The translations under genes were made by a program, and so were the position numbers. From a virus, in the IMG/VR virus record IMGVR_UViG_3300044699_000095, positions 1-37,369 of that record: a DNA stretch of 37,369 nucleotides; one strand, given 5' to 3'. Position 1 is the first letter of the stretch; every line of letters starts with the position of its first letter. The notes below the pieces were generated by a model. That model saw only the letters and a list, made by a program, of their open reading frames with translations. It ran no database searches and was not told the DNA's origin. Of this stretch, positions 3,017 to 20,977 are shown piece by piece.

Positions 3017-3946
3017 ATGCCAGACGAAGTAACCCTTCCAGTCGAGCAAGGGACGGAAACCGCCACGGTAAGCGAGGCCCCGACAGATTTTCGGGAGTTT
3101 GCAAAGTGGCGCGAAACCGGTGAATTGCCCGAGGCGAAGGAACCAGAAACACCCGCGGCCGCGGAAACGCAGGCCAAAACTGAACCGGACTCGGAAACGG
3201 ACGACCATCAGGACACAGGGGAAGACGACGAACAGGATGACGCAGCACCTGCCAAGCAAGGCAAAGGCGGGTCACGGCAACGCCGGATCGAACGACTGAC
3301 ACGCGAAAACGAGGAGTTGAAGCGAGCACTTGCCGGGCCACCGGCAAAGCCGCAGGATAAGCCCTCCGAACCCGCGCAGCCAGCCGCGACCGGCAAGCCG
3401 AAGCTCGAGGACTTCCAAACCCTCGAGGCGTACCAGGAAGCGTTAACGGACTGGAAACTCGATCAACGCGAAAGCGACCGCAAAAAAGCGGAAGCGCGAA
3501 CGGCGGCCGAGCAAGCAGCCCGCACAGAGCAGGACAATTGGGCGAAGCGCGAGAAGGCCGCCCGCAAGGCGCACGACGACTACGACGACCTGATCGATAC
3601 GGTGAAGATCCCGGCAGGGCCGGGAGTACTCGCCGCCCGTCAGGCCATGTTGGAAGACGAGCACGGCGCCGAGCTGCTCTACTACCTGGCGAAAAACCCG
3701 AAAGAGCTGGAACGCATCGCCGGCCTCTCGCCGGCGAGTGCCGTTTTGGCGATCGGCAAACTGTCTGCCACGTTCGACAAACCCCCTGCCACTGAAAACG
3801 GGAAACCCAAGATAACGGGCGCACCCAAACCGCCACCACCGAGCGGCCGGCCTTCGAAGACAACGAGCGACACGCCAGAAGAGGCGGCGAAGCGCGGCGA
3901 CTTCCGGGCCTACACCAAGCTGCGCACGGCGGAGCGGCAGCGGTAA
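3017..3946 (+). CDS. Scaffolding protein, P22 gp8-like
   Basis: 309 residues, intact, lying between portal and coat in the classic P22 order. The protein is very hydrophilic: an acidic, disordered first 90 residues, a basic stretch (RQRRIERLTREN) starting a coiled coil, a long Ala/Glu/Lys/Arg helix at about 140-190, and a Pro-rich tail followed by a basic C-terminus. P22-type scaffolds direct procapsid assembly through a basic C-terminal helix-loop-helix and leave before maturation. Identification rests on position, composition and size rather than a signature motif. Confidence 0.75.
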   Translation: MPDEVTLPVEQGTETATVSEAPTDFREFAKWRETGELPEAKEPETPAAAETQAKTEPDSETDDHQDTGEDDEQDDAAPAKQGKGGSRQRRIERLTRENEELKRALAGPPAKPQDKPSEPAQPAATGKPKLEDFQTLEAYQEALTDWKLDQRESDRKKAEARTAAEQAARTEQDNWAKREKAARKAHDDYDDLIDTVKIPAGPGVLAARQAMLEDEHGAELLYYLAKNPKELERIAGLSPASAVLAIGKLSATFDKPPATENGKPKITGAPKPPPPSGRPSKTTSDTPEEAAKRGDFRAYTKLRTAERQR

Positions 3947-3973
3947 GGGACGCGCCACTGGAGCAAGTAGACA

Positions 3974-5188
3974 GTGGCAACTAACACACTCTTAAACGCA
4001 CAGGTCATCACCAACGAACTCCTGTTGCGGTTCAAAAACAACCTGGGCTTCAGCGGCGCGATTGCCCATACCTGGGACGACAAATTCGCCGTCGAAGGCG
4101 CTAAGGTCGGAGACACGGTCCGGCTGCGCGATGCGGTGCGGTTCACCGTCGCCAAGGCCGGGTCATTACACCCCAGGACGTCAACGAGACGGCCAAAACC
4201 CTAACCCTCAACACTCAGGCGAACGTGTCCTTCCAGTTCACGTCCGCCGAACTGACACTCTCCATCGACGCATTCCGTGACCGGTACCTCGATTCGGCGG
4301 CCGGTGGCGCTGGCCAACGCGGTCGACGTGGACGGGCTCATCATGGCCTATCAGGCGACACCCAACGCGATTGGGACGCCCGGATCGCCGCTGACCATGC
4401 TCGACGCCGCATGGCAGGCCGGCGAGGTCCTGGACCTCAACTCGACACCGATGGACGGCAAGCGGTCCATGGTGATCTCACCGAAGGTGCAGACCCTGAC
4501 GCTCAAAGCCGCGCAGGGACTGTTCCAGTCCAGTACGCAGGTCAAGAACCAGTACGAGCGCGGCCGCATGGGCACGATGGGCGGCTTCGAATGGGTGATG
4601 GACCAGAACACACCGGTCCATCAGGTGGGCCCGCTCGGGGGCGCTCCGCAGGTTGGCGCGGCATTGCAGACCGGATTCACGCTCAATACGACCGGCTGGA
4701 CGGCGGCGGCAGCGCTGCGGCTCAAAAAAGGCGACCTGTTTACGCTGCCCACCGTATTCGCGGTCAATCCGATCTCGGGTGCGGTTGGCTCCGATCTGCA
4801 AAAGTTCGTGGTGACGGCCGATACCTCAAGCGATGCGGGCGGCGCTGCGGCGATTCCGATCTACCCGCCGATCACGGCCACGGGCGCCACCAGGACGGTA
4901 AGCAACTCGCCGGCCGCGGGCGCTCCGCTGACGATCATCGGCACGGCGAACCAACTGACGGCGCAATCGATCGCGTTCCACGAGAGCGCGTTCGTGATCG
5001 GCATGGCGCCGCTCGTGGTGCCGAAGGGAATCCATTTCGGCGCTTCCCAGTCCGATCCGGACACCGGGGTTTCGATCCGTATGCTCAGTGATTACGATAT
5101 CGTCAACGACCTCTTTATCACCCGCTGCGACGTACTTTACGGCCACGCCGCACAGCGCCCGGAATGGGCCGTTCGATTGGAGAGCTAG
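3974..5188 (+). CDS. Major coat protein, P22 gp5-like (two frameshifts)
   Basis: About 405 residues after joining three frames: 3974-4160, 4160-4300 and 4300-5188. The start is GTG. The reading gives the P22 coat N-terminus (ITNELLLRFKNNLGF), then FTSAELTLSIDAFRDRYLD and VALANAVDVDGL, a conserved segment of P22-type coat proteins, and a C-terminal half with DVLYGHAAQRPEWAVRL. It forms the HK97-fold icosahedral shell. One base is lost near 4160 and one G gained near 4301 (GCCGGTG for GCCGTG). Directly downstream of the scaffold. Confidence 0.85.
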
Positions 5189-5190
5189 CC

Positions 5191-5849
5191 ATGAACGAAA
5201 AAGACAAGAACGACAAAAAGCGTGAGAGCGGGAAACTGCCGGAAGAAGAGGGCGTGGAGCGAGGATTCGCTAACCGGCACGCCGAAATCACAGAGCCCGG
5301 CCAGGTCAGACGCCAGGAAATTCCCCCGGAGATCGAGGGAGACGCCGAAGAGGTGGACCGCGAGGCCGACAGACGGCGCACCGAAGGCGTGGAGCGAGGC
5401 TTTGCCAACCGGCACGCCGAAGTGGCGGGCTCGATCATAGGCGACTTGCCGCTTCCGGCGCCGTTTACCCGGCCTCGGACTACGGCGGAACCCGAGGGCG
5501 GTTATGAGGAGGGATACCCGAAGGTCTACTTCTCGGTTTACGACCGTGTTCCGCCGATCGTCGTCAAGACCCGAACGAAGAGGCGGCCATCGATAAGGCG
5601 AACTTCATGACCATCCCGGGCGGCATCATGGAAAAGGTCGACCCGTTGCTGACCGACGCCAAAATGCGCGCGGAATGGCGTGTCGGAGACCGGGCCGCGG
5701 AGCGCAATCTGGGGCAGGATCCGGCGGCAGGAAGTAAATCGGCATACACGCCCGCGCCGGGAGAGTCCGAGCGGCGTAACCGCCCGCTGGACGAGCACCG
5801 GGAACGCGAGGCCAAGGAACGCGAGGGCAAGGGCGGAACGAGGCGCTAA
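5191..5849 (+). CDS. Hypothetical virion-operon protein with internal repeat (one frameshift)
   Basis: About 219 residues once one lost G is restored near 5569 (AAGGAC read as AAGAC); the frame then continues from VVKDPNEEAAIDKANF into MTIPGGIMEKVDPLL. ATG at 5191 has GGAG upstream and follows the coat stop by two bases. The highly charged N-terminal half holds two copies of EGVERGFANRHAE at residues 20-32 and 65-77. No family recognised. Position after the coat gene suggests a capsid-associated or head-completion role, which is inference. Confidence 0.55.
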
Positions 5850-11030: not shown

Positions 11031-11720
11031 ATGGCGTTTACCCTGTTAACGCATACTGGTGGCGGCCTGGGTTCTGCCGGGGGAACCAGCGCAGCCATTG
11101 ACACATCCGGTGCGGATTTTCTGGTGGCTGCGGTGATTTACGATTCGAGAGCTACTCCCACGTTCACCGATTCCAAGGGAAATACGTGGACTGCCGGATT
11201 TGCTCAAACGAACATCAGCAACGCATCCTGCCAGCCTTACTGGTGTAATCCCACTTCAAAGGGAACGGGGCACACAGTAGCCTGCGGCGGGCCATCGTCT
11301 CAGTTTTCATCGGTCTACTTTGCGGCGTTCTCCGGCGCATTGCAGGGCACGCCAAAAGATCAGGCAATCAGCAATGTGGATACATCGAGTACTTGCCAAC
11401 CGGGAAGCCTCACGCCAACGGAAAACAACGAACTGGTAATTTGCATTTGCGCTTTCGGGGTAGTGGGGAACCCAAGTATCGCGGGCGGCGGCATGATCCT
11501 GCTGGATAAGAACGGACTGTCTGCCGGGGCTTTTTACGGCGGCGGGTTGGCGTACGTTGTGCAGTCGGCGGCGGCGGCGATCAATCCAACCTGGACCTTT
11601 CCGGGTCCAAGTGCATCGGCGGCGGAAAGCGTTTCGTTTAAATCACCGGCGGCGCAGCAATACGGCCTGCCGGGCACGGCGGCGGCGGCGGGCACGGGCC
11701 AGAAGGGCTACGCCGTATGA
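11031..11720 (+). CDS. Putative tail/fibre surface protein
   Basis: 229 residues, intact; ATG at 11031 follows the previous stop by seven bases. The sequence is Gly/Ala/Ser/Thr-rich and beta-like with DTSGADFLVAAVIYDSRA and FTDSKGNTWT, a pattern I associate with jelly-roll-like domains of phage and bacterial surface proteins, followed by an Ala/Gly-rich C-terminus. No enzyme motif is seen. Lying between the fibre fusion and the gp10-like gene, it is probably a virion component; the exact role is unknown. Confidence 0.55.
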   Translation: MAFTLLTHTGGGLGSAGGTSAAIDTSGADFLVAAVIYDSRATPTFTDSKGNTWTAGFAQTNISNASCQPYWCNPTSKGTGHTVACGGPSSQFSSVYFAAFSGALQGTPKDQAISNVDTSSTCQPGSLTPTENNELVICICAFGVVGNPSIAGGGMILLDKNGLSAGAFYGGGLAYVVQSAAAAINPTWTFPGPSASAAESVSFKSPAAQQYGLPGTAAAAGTGQKGYAV

Positions 11721-13432
11721 AGATCTCACTTGCCGGGCCATCGCACACGCTGCAAAGCGTGGTTGCTGCCGCGCAGCAGTGCATCAATTGGTATCCGAGA
11801 CGCTCGCCGTAGCGGACGAACCGCGGCGTGAGGTGTTCTTCGGCCGGCCCGGCCTGAAATTCTTCGCACAGCTCACACCCACCAAGATCCGCTGCCTCTG
11901 GGCCGGCGGCGGCCGCCTCTTCGTGGTACACAACGACAAACTGTCGGAGGTCCACTCTGACGGGTCTGTCACCACGCAACCAACGGTGATGTTCCAGGGC
12001 AGCGGAAGCCCCGACCCGGCGCAGATCTTCTCTAACGGGCACCAGCTCATGATCATCACGGGCGGCCTGGTCTACATCGACAACGGCGCGGGGCCGAACC
12101 CGGTGCGGTTTTCCGAGGGCGGCACCGCATCGGCGGATGGGACGACGGCGAACGTGCACCGGCTCACCGGGCCACCGTTCCACGCGGGCATGAATGGAGG
12201 ACTCCTGCGGTTCAACGGCACGTTCTACACCGGGGTGACCGTCACCGGCCCGGACGACATGATGGTGACGCCTGTACCCGAAGCCACCTCAGAGGCCATT
12301 TGGACGATCGATTCCGGCGCAAACGTGGACGCCGTGACGGGCGGGTTTCTCGACGGCTACTTCATCATCAACCGGTGCCGCGGCCTGATCTGCCGCAGGA
12401 TCAGGATCCAGGGCGCAGTACAACATCTCCGGACTATATGACGGCACGTTCTGGGATCCCCTCGATTTCGGGGTCAAGGAGGGTTACGCCGATTTACATC
12501 AACTCGATCCTCTGCGATCACGAGGAATTGATACTGCTCGGGAAGGAAACGACCGAGGTCCACCAGAACGTGGGCGTCACGCTGGACAGCGAAGGCGTGG
12601 CGAGTTTCCCGTTTCAGCGGGTTCCGGGCGCATTCATGCGCGAGGGCTCGGTGAGCACCTTCGCGCCGTGCTCGGTAGGCCCGTACAAGTGCTGGTCGGC
12701 GGTTCGCCCAACGGCCAGACGGTGGCCTATCGGGCGCTCGGGTCCAGCCGGAACGCATAAGCAAGCACGCGCAGGAAGAGAGCTGGAATTCCGCGAACTT
12801 CAAGGTGTCCGATGCGGTGAGTTACTGCTACCTCGACGCAGGCCACCTGTTCTGGGTAATCAATTTCTGGCAGCAGCAGCAGACCTGGGTCTATGACATG
12901 ACCGAGGGCAAGTGGCACGAGCGGAACGGCTTCAACCCGGCGGTGGCTAAATGGCTGGCGAAGTCCAGTTTCATCCGCTACCAGCCGTGGTATCACGCAT
13001 TTGTCCCTGAATGGGGCCAGGGCGGCAAACACACTTGTGGGCGATCCCGCGACCGGCAAACTGTACGAGCAGTCCCTGAACTACTACGACGACGACGGCG
13101 TGCCGATTCAGTATTTGCGAGCCTTCCCGCATCTGCTGAACGAGGACCGCTATCACTTCCACCATCGTTTCGAAGCCTACATGGAAACCGGCACGGTGAA
13201 GGCCGGCGACCCGGAAATGATGTCGGACTGGATTGGAGTAACGACCGCGGACACACGTTCCTGCCCATCCCGCAGTTTCAGGGTTCCGGCGCGAATGGAA
13301 ACTTCTCCAAGCGCATCGTCTGGCGCCGCCTGGGACGAAGCCGCGACCGCGTGTACCGCGTTGGCGTGCAAGGGAAGGCCAAAGTAGCGATGACCGACGC
13401 ATTTGTCGAGGCCACGCCGGGATTCGGCGTAA
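11717..13432 (+). CDS. gp10-like packaged DNA stabilisation / tail hub protein (about eight frameshifts)
   Basis: The reconstructed product is about 570 residues, close to the usual gp10 size. It begins MKISLAGPSHTLQSV and CINWYPE, the P22 gp10 opening (HxLQS, LNxYPE). Further family segments are FNISALYDGT-like QYNISGLYDGTFWDPLDFG, LLGKETTEV, FPFQRVPGAF, RISKHAQE, FVPEWGQGG and WSNDRGHTFL. gp10 forms the hub between gp4 and the tail needle in P22. Frame changes occur near 11797 (a G lost from CCGGAG), 12385, 12490, 12689, 12741, 13027, 13233 and 13420. After the last correction the gene ends in TAA at 13430-13432, overlapping the next ATG (TAATG). ATG overlaps the upstream TGA. Confidence 0.8.
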
Positions 13433-15006
13433 TGCCGAACAGCCTGCAAATCCCCACCGTACCGGGCCGCTCTGCTTACCGGCGCCGATGGCGCGCCGGT
13501 GATCCGCGCCAACGGACCGGACTCCGAACTCGTCATGACGGAGCGGCAGTGGTACATGTTCTGGCAGAATCTCGCCGGGCAACTCAACGCGAACACGCAG
13601 ACGCTCGAGGGACTCGCGAACATCGCCACCTACGGGAATCACGCTGACCGGCCAGATCCCGGCCCGTGGCCCGATGGCGCCTTGTACGTGGAGTGGGGAC
13701 CGGTGCAGTGTCCTCTATCAGAACCAGGGCGGAATCTGGGTATATATCGCGGGCCAGATGTTCGGTACACTCTCGCCGGATCAGCGGCCCACAGACCTGG
13801 GGCCGGCCGCTGACGTGGGATTTCTCTTCCGCACCACGACTGACCCGGCGCAGGCGTTCGCCTGGTCTGGTACGGCGTGGATCGAGACTACTCCCATACG
13901 GTACGGCACCCACGCCGAGCGCCTGGCCGCGCCAATTGCCGATTCTGGGTTTCCGGCATGTTGTGGATGGAGACAGACCGCGGTTTCCGTCATCTATCAG
14001 AACCAGGGCGGCACCTGGCTCTATCTCGCCGGCACCATGTGGGACACGCTGGTGCCCGATCAGCGCCCCACCGACCTCGGCGTATTCGATGCCGGTTTCG
14101 ATTTCCGCACGACCGACCCGCCGCCGCGGGAATTCATCTGGAATCAGACGGCGTGGGTGGAAGTCACGAACATCAGCGGCGCCACGGGTTTGACTCACCC
14201 CAACGTGGTCGCGAAAGTTGGAGCAACGCCAGGCGACACTTGTTGAGGGCGGAATTACCGACGAGAGCGCCGGGAACAGCGACCGGCTGCATATCACGGC
14301 GGCGGGCGCCGTTGGCGTCGGAGTAATTCCATCGGCCGGCTGCCAACTGGCGGCGAAAGGTGGGGATATCGATCTGGCAGAATTGGTCGACGGCCGGTGC
14401 ATGGGGTGTTTTCCACGAATGAGCCAGGCGGCAAATTCGTCGATACGGCCTCCGGCATCAATTGCAGCAGGTACGGTTACACGTACCTCGGCGCCGCCCG
14501 TGCGTTCTCCTGCGCTCTGTCCGCTTATGGGGGGCTGCACTTCTATACCGGCTGATCTGGAACGCATCAATGTCGATGGATCCGGGCGCGTCGGCATCGG
14601 GATCGCTCCGTCGTATACGCTCCAACTCGTCAACGATTCGGCGGGCAAGCCTGCCACGTCCACATGGACCGTGGTATCCGATATCCGGCTGAAGCAAAAC
14701 ATCGAGGCCGTCAAGGACGATCGCCTCGCCATCCTGGAGAAGCTCGACTGGATCCGGTACGAGTACAACGGACTGGCAGACACCCCGAGCGGTCTGCCGG
14801 CCATCGGCCTGGTCGCGCAGGCGGTCGTGGAGCAAATACCGGAAGCGGTGGCGCAGCACCAAGGGCAAGCTGCGCGAGACGGACGACGAAGAAACCGACG
14901 TGTTGGCGATTGACTACCATTACGTCCTGGTACACTCGGCGCGCGCGATCCAGCAGTTGTCTGCCGAGGTGAAGCGCCTCGCCGCGCGATCGAGAAGCCG
15001 GCATGA
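13432..15006 (+). CDS. Tail fibre with C-terminal S74 self-cleaving chaperone (multiple frameshifts)
   Basis: About 525 residues after joining frames. Residues near the start (MTERQWYMFWQNLAGQL) precede two copies of a roughly 60-residue module: YQNQGGIWVYIAG with DQRPTDLGPAADVGF, and YQNQGGTWLYLAG with DQRPTDLGVFDAGF. The C-terminus carries SDIRLKQNI at about 14677-14703, the Ser-Lys cleavage motif of the peptidase S74 intramolecular chaperone, then YEYNGL, AIGLVAQ and a final helix (ARAIQQLSAEVKRL). Such chaperones trimerise beta fibres and then cut themselves off. Frame changes are inferred near 13465, 13695, 13960, 14224, two or more in 14340-14570, 14848 and 14985. Stop TGA 15004-15006 overlaps the next ATG. 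Confidence 0.75.
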
Positions 15007-15546
15007 TCCACATCGAGCGCTCATTCGACTATGGCTTGATAAAAGCGATCATGACCCACCCCGCCGTGTACCGGCACCTCACCGACGACACGGCGCCGCC
15101 GGCCGCGGAGTTTAGGCCGATCGTGAGTGACCTGATCTGGTATTTGCTGGCGTGGGACGGCGACGAGTGCTCGGACTTTGGCTGCTCCACCCGCACACCG
15201 CCGTCTGCTGGGAGATCCACACTGCTCTCCTGCCGGATGCGTGGGGCGACCGGGCGCGGCGGGCGGCGCAAGTAATGCTCGAGTGGGTCTGGACGAATAC
15301 GCCGTGCCGGCGCATCGTGACCGGCGTGCCGCAGGGGAACCGCCTGGCCTACCGTTTCGCCATTGCGGCGGGGATGGAGCAGTACGGCGTCAATGAGGCG
15401 TCATTTATCCGGGACGGCCGGATGCAGGACCAGATCTGCCTCGGCATCAGCCGGCCGCGCGATTTGCCTTTGTTCGAGGCCGCAGAAGTATCGATTCCCG
15501 GCGAACGCAGCCCGTGGCTGCATTCTCGGGTACGAAGGAGGGGTAA
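15003..15546 (+). CDS. GNAT-like acyltransferase of the tail region (two frameshifts)
   Basis: About 181 residues. The N-terminal part (MIHIERSFDYGLIKAIMTHP) and the later RIVTGVPQGNRLAYRFAIAAG followed by a YGVNEASFIRDGRM strand match the GNAT/DUF2824-type proteins often encoded beside podovirus tail genes. It is likely to acylate a small substrate or protein; none can be named. One G is lost near 15166 (GAGGTG read as GAGTG) and another base near the end, so that the gene ends at TAA 15544-15546, one base before the next GTG. ATG at 15003 overlaps the upstream TGA. Confidence 0.65.
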
Positions 15547-16453
15547 GTGCCCGCTGTCGCAATTCCAGCCGCAATCAGTTTAGGCACCAGCATCATCGGC
15601 GGGATCCAGGGATCCCGCGCGTCGAAGAAAGCCGCGCAGACGCAGTCTGACCAGGCGAACGGTCTGCGCAGGAAACTCAAGGACGTCCTCGGCGAGTACA
15701 ACCCGCGCATCGGCGCTGCGGCGGATACCGCCGCCGGCAACGTCACCGCCGCGACCGCGCGCCGGCCAGGGCCGGATCGACGACGCGACTGCGCAAGCGC
15801 TCAAGCTCCTTGTCGCCCTACATGGACGCCGGCGGCGAGAGTCTACAGACGCTGCGCGGCCTGATGGCGCCCGGCGGCGACCTCAATAAGACGTTCACCG
15901 CGGACGACATGCACGCCTACGATCCCGGGTACGCCTTCCGGATGGAGCAGGCGCAGAAGGCGCTGCAGGGTTCGCGCGGCCGCCCGCGGCGGCGCGCTCG
16001 GCGGCGGCGCGCTGCGATCGCTGGTTGTCGTCTGAGCCAGAACGTGGCTTCGAACGAGTTCGGCGCCGCCGAGGGGCGATTCCGGGCCCAGCAGGGCGAC
16101 CGGTTCAACCGGCTCAATTCCCTCGTCAATCTCGGCGCGACCACGGCGGACCGGGCGGCCGGGTACGGCACCGCGGCGCCAGCGAAGCGGCACGGCTCGG
16201 GCTCTCCGGCGCGGCAACCGCCGGCGGGTTCCAGACCGATGCGGCGGGCAGGATGGCGACGAACGCGCTGAACACCTACGGAAACATCGAAGACCTGCTG
16301 ACCGGCGGCGCCGCGGCGCGGGCAGGGGGCACGATGGGAGCGGCGAATGCGTGGAGCACTGCGCTCGGGGGAGTCGCCAATACCGCGAATCAGGTTGGCG
16401 GCTATTACCAGAAAAAGAGCTTGGCTAATTTGATGCAAACCCTGCAGCCATGA
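15547..16453 (+). CDS. DNA ejection/transfer protein (several frameshifts)
   Basis: About 300 residues. GTG at 15547 has a strong AAGGAGGGG upstream. The N-terminus (PAAISLGTSIIGGIQGSRAS) is a hydrophobic, Gly-rich helix followed by KK and Gln-rich sequence. The middle YMDAGGESLQTLRGLM, then DPGYAFRMEQAQKAL, then LSQNVASNEFGAAEGRF and RFNRLNSLVNLG, are hallmarks of the internal-virion DNA transfer protein family found next to podovirus tail genes. The end is Gly/Ala-rich with YGNIEDLL. It is expected inside the capsid and to enter the host membrane at infection. Frames change near 15780, 15985, 16030 and 16185. Confidence 0.7.
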
Positions 16454-16486
16454 CTGGGATTACGGCGGGTGACGAGGTAACCTCCA

Positions 16487-18204
16487 ATGGCAATCGATCC
16501 ATCCATTTCCCTTGGCTACCGGCCGCCGGTGATTGCGCCGCTGCAACTCGCGGACCCGCTCGAGCAGTTCGCGAAGGTGCAGACGCTGCGCAACCTGATG
16601 CAGGAGCAGCAGTCCGGGCAACTCGGGCTGCAGGCGCAGCAGTTGAAGATGCAGGAAGCGCAGCGGGCTTGCAGGACGAGGAAAAACTGCGTGCAAACCC
16701 GACCATGTCCGATGCGGAATTGATCGGCGCATTCGGAAGCCGCGCAATGCCTCTGATCAAGGGCGCGCGGCGAACAGACGCAGCAGTTCTACAAGACGGA
16801 AGGCGAACGGTACGGGCTGCTCGGTCAACTGGCCGGATCGGCGACCGATAAAGATTCGGCCACCCGCGCAATCGGTCTCGCCATCCGCAGCCGCGCCTTC
16901 GACCCGGACCCGGCAAAAAACGCCGAAATCGGCCAGCAGATGCTGGATCACTTGAACACGAACGGGTACAACCCGCCGAGTACAAGCAATTCCAGTTCAT
17001 AGCGATGAAGGCAAAGAGGCCCACGATGCGATGGCGGCCGACACAAAGCCACGCTCGAAGAGGCGGGCGTCCAGGCCGAAAACGTCCGCAAAGCCGCCGA
17101 AGCGGAACAGAAGCAGCGGCAACTGGAAGCCTCGACGCTCGGGCCAGCTATAGAGCGAGGCGCAGTTGCTTTCCAGCAGGCGCTGGCCAAGATGGACCCG
17201 AAACGCGCGGCGCTCTATAGCGGGTTCCGAAATTGGCGCGAGTTGATGATGTTCGCCAACACCCCGCATGAGCAGATCACCGCGCAGCAGGCCGCAGCTA
17301 ACGCCGCGCGCCAATCCATTCCCAACACTCCGACCGAACTGGCGATATGGATGAACGACCCGAAGCGCACGCCGGAACGAGAGGGCGAGCGGGGCAAGCG
17401 GCGATGAAAGAGTTGGAACGCCACGCCGTAGCATCCCGCCCGGTCATCAACAACATGATTCCGGGTCTGCCACCTGTCGGCGGCGGCGGGAACCAGACGA
17501 CGGGCGAAGAGTTTCTCAAAACCTTGCCCCGGGAGTCGCCGCGCAGATATCCGGGGAATGGCTGAAGGAAGGCTCACTGCCCCGACCGCGAATTCCCGCG
17601 CACCTGGGGCGGCGCAGAGGCGTGATGCACTGCTCCGTTATGACCCGGGTTTCAGCGAACAGCGGGCACAGATCCGCAAGAGTTTCACGACGGGACCAGA
17701 CGGACGGAATATCGGAGCACTCAATACGGCCATCGTCCACCTGGGAAGGCTCGGCAACACGGCGGAATCTCTAGAGAACGGAAGCTTCGTCCCTGGCAAT
17801 GAGGCATACAACTGGCTGCGCGACAAATTCGGTTCCGACAAAGTGACGAATTTCGGTCTGCTGAAAGACGCGGTGGCTGGCGAAATGGCAGCAGCCTTGA
17901 AAGGCAATGCCACGGACATTGAAATCGAAAAGATGGGCAAATCGATTCGTGCAGCTAACTCGCCGGCACAGATGCGCGGCGTTATTCAGGAGGGTATGGC
18001 AATCCTGAATGACAAGGCGAATACCTACAACGAACGGTATCACCGGGAAATGCCAGACGACCCGTGGAGTCCGATCCTGCCGAGCGCGAGGGAACAACTG
18101 CGCGCCACTCTCACGGCGGCGGCACCACAACGTATAAGGCGGGAGACACCCGCGTGATCAACGGGAAGACATACACCAGGGACGCCAGCGGGAATTGGAA
18201 ATGA
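16487..18204 (+). CDS. Large internal/ejection protein (about seven frameshifts)
   Basis: About 570 residues. MAIDPSISLGYRPP leads into LADPLEQFAKVQTLRNLMQ and a Gln/Leu coiled coil, typical of phage ejection proteins that follow the transfer protein gene. Later parts include a helical MSDAELIGAFG, GERYGLLGQLAGSA, an Ala/Glu/Gln-rich coil, NRWREL-like FRNWRELMMFA, GRNIGALNTAIVHLGRLG and a C-terminal INGKTYTRDASGNWK. The last motif, one residue short of the stop, is common at the ends of phage internal proteins. Frame changes occur near 16670, 16770, 17000, 17180, 17390, 17530 and 18125. TGA 18202-18204 overlaps the next ATG. Confidence 0.6.
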
Positions 18205-20065
18205 GTCCTCAACTGACCGATGCCGATATCGCTAGGCATGACGCCGCAGCCGGCAGAGTCCTGACCGATGCGGACATGACCAGAATTGACACCTCCGACC
18301 GTGTCATACGCGATCACCTGAAGGATGAAGGGTTTCTCGATTCCGTTTGGAACGTCGTCAAATCCCCGGTTAGCATCCTGTATTCGCTAGTCTCTGGAGA
18401 GGATGCCAAATCCGGAAGCGAGGACCGCAAACGGGCGGATGAGTTGCAGCGATCCGGCACACCAGAGCAACGGCGCGAGTTCGCTAAAGAAATCATCCTC
18501 AAAAACATCCCCGGCGCTTCGACAATCTACAAAGCAACCCATGGCAATGTGTCAGGCGCGGCGGGCGATGTCACGGGCGGGCTAGTCCTTGGCGGGCTGA
18601 TCAAGGGGAACGCAGAAGACGGCGGGCGCCGCAGGAACCATCAGAGACATTGTCACTGATCCGGCAGTCATAAAGGCAACCCGCGCTGCCATTCCCGCGA
18701 AATATAAACACGTCATAGACGCTGCGCAAGCGGTCAGGAACCGGATCTCAGCGGGGAAGAGGGGCGGCCCGGTAGAACAACCGCAGGGCGGCCACTTCTC
18801 CAACCCCTCCATCGGAAATCCTCCCGCGAACTGCCGAGCAGCCGCAGGGCGGCCACTTTCCGGCGCGATCGCCGATGGGGCCGCCACCAGCACCGCCGGA
18901 ACCCGGCCTGCCGGCGGCGGGCGCGCCGACCGCGGCCGAGTTCGAGGCCGCCGCAACACGTCCCGCGGACGTGGGAAGAATGGCACCGGCCGAAGCCCGG
19001 GCCGATTTCGAACAGCGGCGCGCCACCCGGACCCAAGGGCAACCTCCGACTCCCGGCCAACAATTCGCCGAGTCTCAGGGTTACGACTGGGCGAAACTCT
19101 CGCCCGATGACCGGCTGGCGTTAGAGCAGATTGCGGAGGCGCAGGCCAACATGGCCGCCCAGAACCTGGAAGTCCCGCCGCGGCCAGCGGCGCCACCGGC
19201 GCCCGCTGAACCTAGAACCCTGGCCGACCTGATCCCAGAGACGGAACTCGAGAGGCAACTCGGCGAATCCATCCGGCAGGCGCAGGCAGGCAAACCGACC
19301 GCAGCCGAGGTGCCGCCGCAGCCCGCGGCGCCGGTACAGAAGGCCGAAAATATCTTCGCCAAGAATGCCCGGCTGGCCAAGGCTGTGCGCGTGGCCGATG
19401 CCGCCCAGGAGGCGGGCCTCAAATCGGGCGACATCTTCCGAATGAGTCCGGCCGAATTCGCGGAGAAGGTCGGCGAGAAATCCATCAGCGCGGACACGAT
19501 GGCAATGGTGGTGGATAAACTCCGGAGACTCGAGAGCCAGGCGCCACCGGCGGCGCCCGCGCCCGCACCGGCGCCTACTGGGCCGAAGTCCACGCCACCG
19601 TCAGCTGCGCCAACCACTCTCCGCGATCTGATGCAGCCCGAGCCGCCCGCGGCCGCGGCGCCGCGCAAGTTACCATCGGACGCCAGAGTCACGTTCAAGC
19701 CTGATCCGGAGGATGCCGGAACCTGGAATGTGAAGGCGACCATCGGGAATGAGTCAATCGGGTCCATGGATCTGATCGAACGGCCCAATGATCTTGAGGT
19801 CGATCTCTCACACCTGCTGCCGAAATATCGCGGCCAAGGTTACGGCAAGGTGATGTATCAGGAAGCGCTGAAAAAGGCGCAGGAATTGGGTAAGCGCCGT
19901 CTGATCTCCGGGTCCGAGTTCACTGAGGACGCAGCCCGCGTATGGCGTTCGCTCGGTGGCGAGGAATTCACCGACGCGCACGGCGAAACGCGCTGGCGAC
20001 TTGCAGTGCCCGCGGAACCCAAGGCCGCGGCGCCGCGGCCGCGGCGAGCGAAACCCACCCGTTAA
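18201..20065 (+). CDS. Ejection-type protein with C-terminal GNAT acetyltransferase domain (frameshifts)
   Basis: About 621 residues. The N-terminus has two short repeats (LTDADIARHD, LTDADMTRID), then a hydrophobic Gly-rich helical stretch (GDVTGGLVLGGLIKG), a long Pro/Ala-rich acidic region and helices such as LIPETELERQLGESIRQAQ. The last 110 residues resemble a GNAT fold: a beta strand pair, LEVDLSHLLPKYRGQGYG, the R/Q-x-x-G-x-G acetyl-CoA loop, then helix KVMYQEALKKAQELGKR, and VWRSLGGEEF. Frames change near 18615 and 18840. The first part, after the transfer and ejection genes, suggests an internal virion protein; the enzymatic C-terminus is unusual. The gene is last before the operon terminator. 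Confidence 0.6.
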
Positions 20066-20094
20066 CCCACCGTTCCTTCTCCTCCCAACACCCT

Positions 20095-20127
20095 GCGGGG
20101 CGCCAGTCAGGCGCCCCGCTTTTTTTT
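20095..20127 (+). terminator. Rho-independent terminator of the late operon
   Basis: Perfect 10-bp stem GCGGGGCGCC / GGCGCCCCGC (20095-20104 and 20110-20119) with loop AGTCA, followed by eight T. It lies 30 bases after the last virion gene. Confidence 0.95.
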
Positions 20128-20148
20128 GCGTCTGCGCAGGCCTGGATA

Positions 20149-20177
20149 TTGACTTTGTGTTATCATTTTGATAACAT
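20149..20177 (+). promoter_or_regulatory. higBA promoter with palindromic operator
   Basis: TTGACT (20149-20154), 17-base spacer and TAACAT (20172-20177) resemble a sigma70 promoter. A perfect inverted repeat, GTTATCA-TTT-TGATAAC (20159-20175), covers the spacer and the -10 region. HigA-type antitoxins bind such palindromes to repress their own operon, so this is the likely operator. The transcript would start very close to the GTG of higB. Confidence 0.7.
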
Positions 20178-20182
20178 GAATT

Positions 20183-20476
20183 GTGAACGTGATCAGCAAG
20201 CAAGGACTCACTCGGCTGGCAGCCAAGCATCCAGGGGCTGAGGCCGAAGCGCTGAACTGGTTCCGGGTTGCCTCCGCTGCCACCTGGTCCTGCCTTGCCG
20301 ATGTGCGGAACGATTTTCCGAGTGCGGATTTGATTGGCGAAGTTCTGGTGTTCAACCTGGGACACAACCGCTACCGGCTGATTGCGACCGTGTTCTTTGC
20401 TGGCCGCGAGTTGTATGTAAAAGCGTTGATGACCCACAAAGAGTATGGTCGGGAGGAGTGGAAGAAATGGTGCTAG
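20183..20476 (+). CDS. higB: HigB-type mRNA interferase toxin
   Basis: 97 residues, intact, GTG start. The sequence follows the HigB family throughout: NVISKQGLTRLAAKHPGAEA, W-x-x-A-x-A-TWSCLADVRNDFPSAD, VFNLGHNRYRLIATVFF and the C-terminal MTHKEYGREEWKKW. HigB is a RelE-fold ribosome-dependent endoribonuclease that cuts translated mRNA until neutralised by HigA. The toxin-first order and the downstream antitoxin gene are typical of higBA. Located just after the late-operon terminator, so transcribed separately. Confidence 0.9.
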   Translation: MNVISKQGLTRLAAKHPGAEAEALNWFRVASAATWSCLADVRNDFPSADLIGEVLVFNLGHNRYRLIATVFFAGRELYVKALMTHKEYGREEWKKWC

Positions 20477-20510
20477 CGACTGCAAATACGGAAGACTGCT
20501 TTCCCGGACG

Positions 20511-20870
20511 ATGCCGAAACGCATCGAAACCGATGAGGAAATGGAGCAATTTATTGAAATCATGGAACCGCTCAGCCGCGCGATCGAGCACGGCAAGGCG
20601 ACTCCCGAAGAAAAGACGCTCCATTCACTATTGTCCACGCTGGTCAAAGAATACGATGATCGCGCCTACCCGCTACCGGCCGGTGATCCGATCGGCCTGC
20701 TTCGATTCCTTATGGAACAACGTAACCTCAGCGCCCCTGACTTGACGCCGGTCTTTGGCGCGCGCTCCATCGCATCCCTGATCCTCAATGGCAAGCGTGA
20801 ACTGAGCAAGACGCATATCCGCAAACTCGCCGAATTCTTCCGCCTGCCTCCTGCGCTCTTTTTCACCTAG
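20511..20870 (+). CDS. higA: HigA-type antitoxin, XRE-family HTH
   Basis: 119 residues, 34 bases downstream of the toxin stop. An N-terminal helical toxin-binding part (TDEEMEQFIEIMEPLSRAIE, LVKEYDDRAYPLP) is followed by an HTH: LLRFLMEQRNLSAPDLTPVFG, SIASLILNGKRELSKTHIRKLAEFF. This is the layout of HigA antitoxins that also repress the operon. Tyr-rich LVKEYDDRAYPLP is characteristic. ATG at 20511 was chosen; an upstream in-frame start is possible. Confidence 0.9.
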   Translation: MPKRIETDEEMEQFIEIMEPLSRAIEHGKATPEEKTLHSLLSTLVKEYDDRAYPLPAGDPIGLLRFLMEQRNLSAPDLTPVFGARSIASLILNGKRELSKTHIRKLAEFFRLPPALFFT

Positions 20871-20977
20871 CTCCGAAAATTGCGTCTACGCAGGCCTCAG
20901 CCCTAGCCCACATGCCCGCCCTGCCTGATCTCTTTGCCGTCTCCGCGGGTTCCGCCCTAGTTCGGCTGGAAGTTTAG

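Follow-up and report, generated by a model that had tools for sequence, protein, structure and literature searches.

Phage P22 is known to inject the proteins gp7, gp16 and gp20 (PMC8402733), and for gp16, a protein of 609 aa, no cargo enzyme is listed in a review. Models of T7 show gp16-C projecting into the cytoplasm (PMC8954989). Enzyme domains of many kinds occur in the polyvalent proteins of phages and conjugative elements; those of phages, for which injection has been proposed, were catalogued in 2017 by Iyer et al. and include RimI-like GNATs as well as ParB domains of the DdrB-like kind (PMC5512222). A GNAT-type phage protein is also known in free-standing form, namely Rac (LUZ19 Gp28), which alters the host early (PMC7552054). 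In the open-access literature, no report was found of a GNAT placed within the tail of an ejection gene of P22 type, nor of phages that exchange cargo while being nearly identical to either side of the exchanged part.

The DNA analysed here, hereafter the window, is the whole of the IMG/VR virus record IMGVR_UViG_3300044699_000095 (37,369 bases). Judged by its predicted portal, scaffold, coat, Hc3 and Ad3 connector proteins and its matches to phrog_651 and phrog_598, it belongs to a P22-related, short-tailed soil phage. The two ends of the record hold the portal (left) and the large terminase (right), an arrangement that suggests a circularly permuted and nearly complete genome. A tRNA search of the whole window returned none, a DNA search of phage records with positions 15003-20065 as query gave zero matches, and a genome scan for related prophages recovered two distant ones only. 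Related loci used for comparison are designated by L numbers. From position 15003 onwards, the genes follow each other in this order:

15003..15546, + strand, P22 gp14-type gene of head morphogenesis whose product has a GNAT-like fold (phrog_651, E 1.4e-8; 181 aa in intact relatives)
15547..16453, + strand, first ejection-block gene, P22 gp7 type, frame-broken (phrog_598, DNA ejection, E 2.5e-8)
16487..18204, + strand, second ejection-block gene, P22 gp20 position, frame-broken (matches to L004-L008 and L010)
18201..20065, + strand, third ejection-block gene, P22 gp16 position, its ATG overlapping the stop of the preceding gene, with two frame breaks

The block resembles that of P22 in gene order, in the match of the first gene to the gp7 family (phrog_598; E 5.3e-16 for the corresponding gene of L010) and in the second gene, a remote relative of the gp20 family detected as a profile match (probability 97%) to a group that includes L102 and holds phrog_2534. 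L102 is a betaproteobacterial prophage in which the same first gene is followed by proteins of phrog_2534 (released on infection) and phrog_770 (DNA transfer). The third gene of the window lies downstream of the phrog_651 and phrog_598 matches and of this remote gp20-family relative, that is, in a late-gene, virion-associated context. No match was obtained when the third proteins in the window lineage were compared by profile with the P22 gp16-like group, and neither the N-terminal part of the L010 protein nor the L016 protein matched any PHROG. Since the third proteins of the two groups are unmatched, the term gp16 slot denotes position only, and the gene is an occupant of the P22 gp16 (phrog_770) slot that is not filed as a member of the gp16 family.

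The initial annotation had named a separate GNAT gene at 15003. The GNAT-like fold of its product stands, but the gene is an ordinary morphogenesis gene of the gp14 type (phrog_651), frame-broken near 15164 in the window, whole in relatives and present in all relatives checked. As a conserved ordinary morphogenesis gene it carries no weight for the idea of injection, and its use as support for a second effector was dropped. On the other side of the block, downstream of the third gene at 20183-20870, a product of ~97 aa that is HigB-like by eye is followed by a helix-turn-helix protein matching phrog_11202 and phrog_1373, in DNA 94.7% identical to L010; the two genes are possibly a toxin-antitoxin pair of the lysogen.

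The end of the third gene, in which a GNAT-like domain with an RGQGYG loop had first been noticed, is made up as follows:

19614..19669, + strand, left-hand portion of the conserved C-terminal tail, TTLRDLMQPEPPAAAAPRK (DNA 79-87% identical to that of the L009, L019, L040, L041 and L042 tails; 75% to L010)
19651..19665, + strand, left copy of a 15-base direct repeat, GGCCGCGGCGCCGCG, that brackets the GNAT (repeat family D4)
19691..20011, + strand, GNAT acetyltransferase domain (Pfam, fold model, Foldseek, VIA-align)
about 19829-19846, + strand, acetyl-CoA loop RGQGYG within YRGQGYG, agreeing with the motif Q/RxxGxG/A
20023..20037, + strand, right copy of the repeat GGCCGCGGCGCCGCG, where near-identity to L010 resumes
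20023..20065, + strand, right-hand portion of the conserved tail, AAAPRPRRAKPTR, with the stop codon (L010 DNA identity 94.7% over 20023-20887)

Pfam family PF00583 matched at E 7.5e-7, with 29.9 bits against a curated cut-off of 20.7, and the last 132 residues alone scored 31.3 bits; NCBIfam held no family for the third protein of the window or for its GNAT. The AlphaFold2 model of the domain, built from the single sequence (mean pLDDT 76.5) and little changed by the addition of three Drulisvirus homologues, runs strand-strand-strand-strand-helix-strand-helix-strand-strand, which is the GNAT order. Foldseek returned 259 matches in the PDB at E<=0.001 (best E 7.8e-6, probability 1.00), and all 50 of the 259 that were listed are acetyltransferases or GNAT-superfamily proteins. 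By VIA-align, Z was 11.7 for the best GNAT chain (113 residues at rmsd 2.4), 11.4 for RimI, and about 11 for human GCN5 and the small GNAT YhhK (YhhK/PanZ). Profile and model together confirm the initial annotation in that the gene ends in a real GNAT domain, for which catalysis is predicted.

The third proteins of L010, L019, L040, L041 and L042 share a tail of the form TLREFMQPEPPAAAAPRKRRSKPVR, the tail motif being TLRDLMQPEPPAAAAPRK. The window reads, in one frame, TTLRDLMQPEPPAAAAPRK, the GNAT, AAAPRPRRAKPTR and the stop; with matching tail sequence before and after it and no change of frame, the GNAT is part of the third gene and is inserted within its tail. Pro/Ala-coding GC repeats recur across the gene, so that the 15-base repeat by itself says little about how the insertion came about. 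A different insert of ~80 residues, which has no Pfam match, stands at nearly the same point of the tail in L009 (about 11450-11700).

DNA of the window and of L010 is 93% identical over 18133-18277 and 94.7% identical over 20023-20887, the latter beginning with the last 42 bases of the gene. The part of L010 that lies between these two stretches codes for a 998-1000-residue protein in which a DdrB-like ParB domain is found; both gene ends stay constant, and the cargo is exchanged between near-identical phages. The gene of the window is a mosaic, resembling L010 at its start, L016 over 18295-18798 (72% DNA identity), L040 over 19353-19557 (69%) and L041 in its tail. Six close relatives carry DdrB-ParB in the third slot (L009, L010, L019, L040, L041 and L042), no cargo was recognised in L016, and the region in L012 is an unnamed one. 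In L004 (10633-12963), the third protein of the block terminates in a histidine phosphatase (His_Phos_1, PF00300, E 9.6e-21), the 1894-aa third-slot protein of L093 (3091-8775) combines ART-PolyVal (ADP-ribosyltransferase) with LPD38, that of L064 (3272-11188), over 2600 aa long, combines a methyltransferase with LPD38, and transglycosylases (cell-wall lytic domains) occupy the slot in L035, L046 and L098; many third-slot proteins of more distant phages gave no Pfam match. The presence of different enzyme domains in the same gene of near-identical phages makes this gene look like a slot for exchangeable cargo. Conservation of the GNAT fusion in relatives, a question raised by the initial annotation, was not borne out, as a GNAT occurs in 0 of about 30 related third-slot proteins: as far as these sequences go, the conserved feature is a slot holding different domains, not the fusion. 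An integrase-anchored scan found no further variant of the third gene. In L005, a fourth gene (12538-13521) directly follows the third ejection gene; its 327-aa product, ADP-ribosyltransferase-like by eye, gave no match in Pfam or NCBIfam and was not counted.

Counterparts of the GNAT itself were found in another phage family. Its best matches in 50,697 phage records (E 3e-4 to 4e-3) were internal virion proteins of Drulisvirus phages, including SFN6B, myPSH1235 and KpV48, and of phage ZH5, with 30% identity over 105 residues and the shared motifs RGxGxG, MY, SxSxxT and WRxLG; one of these records already bears an N-acyltransferase note. As in the window lineage, the GNAT is optional: its segment is present in 7/295 records holding the neighbouring part. 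Unlike in the window, it lies near residue 310-385 of a T7 gp16-type protein of 1420 aa and not in a C-terminal tail. This parallel is independent of the window, so GNATs entered ejection-type proteins at least twice. A search of viral contigs with a 396-aa part of the third gene found no other GNAT-bearing relative, a search with the GNAT alignment for further relatives returned Drulisvirus records only, and a plasmid search with the GNAT gave a single Streptomyces GNAT (E 9e-3). Among every open frame of all fetched loci, the GNAT HMM scored convincingly only for the window, Drulisvirus and L107, the Tunturiibacter phage Tunturi_5. In the latter, the hit (E 9e-11) is a 689-aa protein annotated 'portal protein' (3140-5206), which seems to contain two stretches resembling GNATs and one resembling ParB, and no portal fold; the annotation may be wrong. 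Rac shares with the window the GNAT of a phage, and would share its early action on host physiology, which is described for Rac (PMC7552054) and supposed here; its gene differs in being free-standing near the phage RNA polymerase gene and not part of an ejection protein.

The polyvalent proteins offer the nearest described kind. They too are large products of late blocks; they combine unrelated enzyme domains, GNAT and DdrB-like ParB among them, and sister cargos of the slot match PF18763, PF18760 and PF18857 (ddrB-ParB, ART-PolyVal and LPD38), Pfam models named after that work. The present proteins differ in having one recognised enzyme domain each, the window protein showing unnamed helical modules besides; in the constant ends of the gene, with cargo that differs from one phage to another where the adjoining DNA is about 94% identical; and in the position of the GNAT inside the conserved tail of a P22-type ejection gene. 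The best reading of the sequences is that the third gene fits the polyvalent kind, as an exchangeable enzyme cargo on a putatively ejected protein. We consider it probable, without pressing the point, that this is the third P22-type ejection protein, built of constant ends and exchangeable modules, and that the GNAT is a putative C-terminal enzyme cargo inserted in its conserved tail. The Pro/Ala linkers, rich in short GC repeats, are probably the crossover points at which cargo is swapped.

It is unlikely that the GNAT fold has lost its enzyme function and serves assembly or ejection as a structural or binding element, like the GNAT-like product of the gp14-type gene nearby. The same genome does have such a fold in a head-morphogenesis family, and the domain of the third gene is short, its model being without the usual N-terminal helices; however, the fold matches include compact GNATs like YhhK/PanZ, the acetyl-CoA loop is intact, and the slot carries enzyme-type domains of unrelated kinds in other phages.

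The integrity of the gene has to be considered as well, since its coding sequence is spread over three frames:

18201..~18614, + strand, N-terminal part in frame 0 (by tblastn of L010, L009 and L016, like L010/L009 in its first residues and like L016 after them)
~18610..~18837, + strand, second stretch, frame +1, between the breaks at ~18610 and ~18826 (L016 residues 132-214 match in the shifted frame)
about 18827..20065, + strand, third stretch, open throughout in frame +2 (with Pro/Ala linkers, helical modules and the conserved tail containing the GNAT)

The third protein of L016, which is encoded in one open frame, matches these stretches in order with its residues 34-138, 132-214 and 210-222, and the breaks are therefore small indels within one gene. 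A single open frame is likewise found in L009, L010, L012, L019 and L040-L042. The single gene that the initial annotation placed at 18201-20065 thus stands by comparison with relatives, but the record itself holds no single open frame for it. Both breaks lie upstream of the GNAT. Others affect the portal, coat, gp10-type, tail, gp14-type, gp7-type and gp20-slot genes; in all, breaks fall within 849-2986, 3974-5188 and 11717-18870 of the window, and annotation of the record should allow for them.

Even less likely than loss of enzymatic function is that these are real mutations of a defective prophage, and that any GNAT would be a separate short protein made from an internal start and detached from the ejection part. 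The number of affected genes, from the portal to the third gene, would agree with decay, and an ATG at 18875 would yield a protein of 396 aa. Against this, the breaks inspected are indels of 1-2 bases; two 1-base indels in the coat gene cancel each other and the first falls within a run of A, for which reason the breaks look like sequencing error. Moreover, the integrase, scaffold and large terminase genes are open, the stretch from 18827 to 20065 is unbroken, and relatives with intact genes show the same arrangement from N-terminus to tail.

If the GNAT is the cargo of an ejected protein, the third protein would be packed in the head and would leave it before or with the DNA, like gp7, gp16 and gp20 of P22. 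Given injection in P22 and the cytoplasmic gp16-C of the T7 models, a C-terminal GNAT could meet acetyl-CoA and host proteins before phage gene expression. The cargo would refold in the cytoplasm, where acetyl-CoA is found, and right at the onset of infection the GNAT may then acetylate a protein of the host, be it RNA polymerase, a factor of translation or one of defence. The cytoplasmic location of acetyl-CoA speaks against the least probable alternative, in which the ejected protein only builds a trans-envelope channel and the GNAT acts on phage proteins or rides passively, with no host target. P22 ejection proteins are indeed thought to form a periplasmic conduit (PMC8402733), but the cargo types of the slot match injected conflict proteins (PMC5512222).

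The reading as an ejected protein with exchangeable cargo can be carried further, on a more tentative footing that falls short of probable. The third gene may be a delivery cassette, in which the constant ends secure packaging and ejection, a recombination-prone linker-and-tail site trades host-acting enzymes, and the GNAT form delivers a protein acetyltransferase before phage gene expression. A cassette of this kind would resemble polymorphic toxins with their exchangeable toxin tips, but would be carried by the virion. For isolated Drulisvirus phages, it raises the question of whether an ejected GNAT acetylates host proteins before phage transcription. If the cassette reading is true, the gene would mark where this phage lineage keeps and changes its first-strike enzymes, and the slot, read across metagenomes, would list the cargos delivered at the moment of infection.
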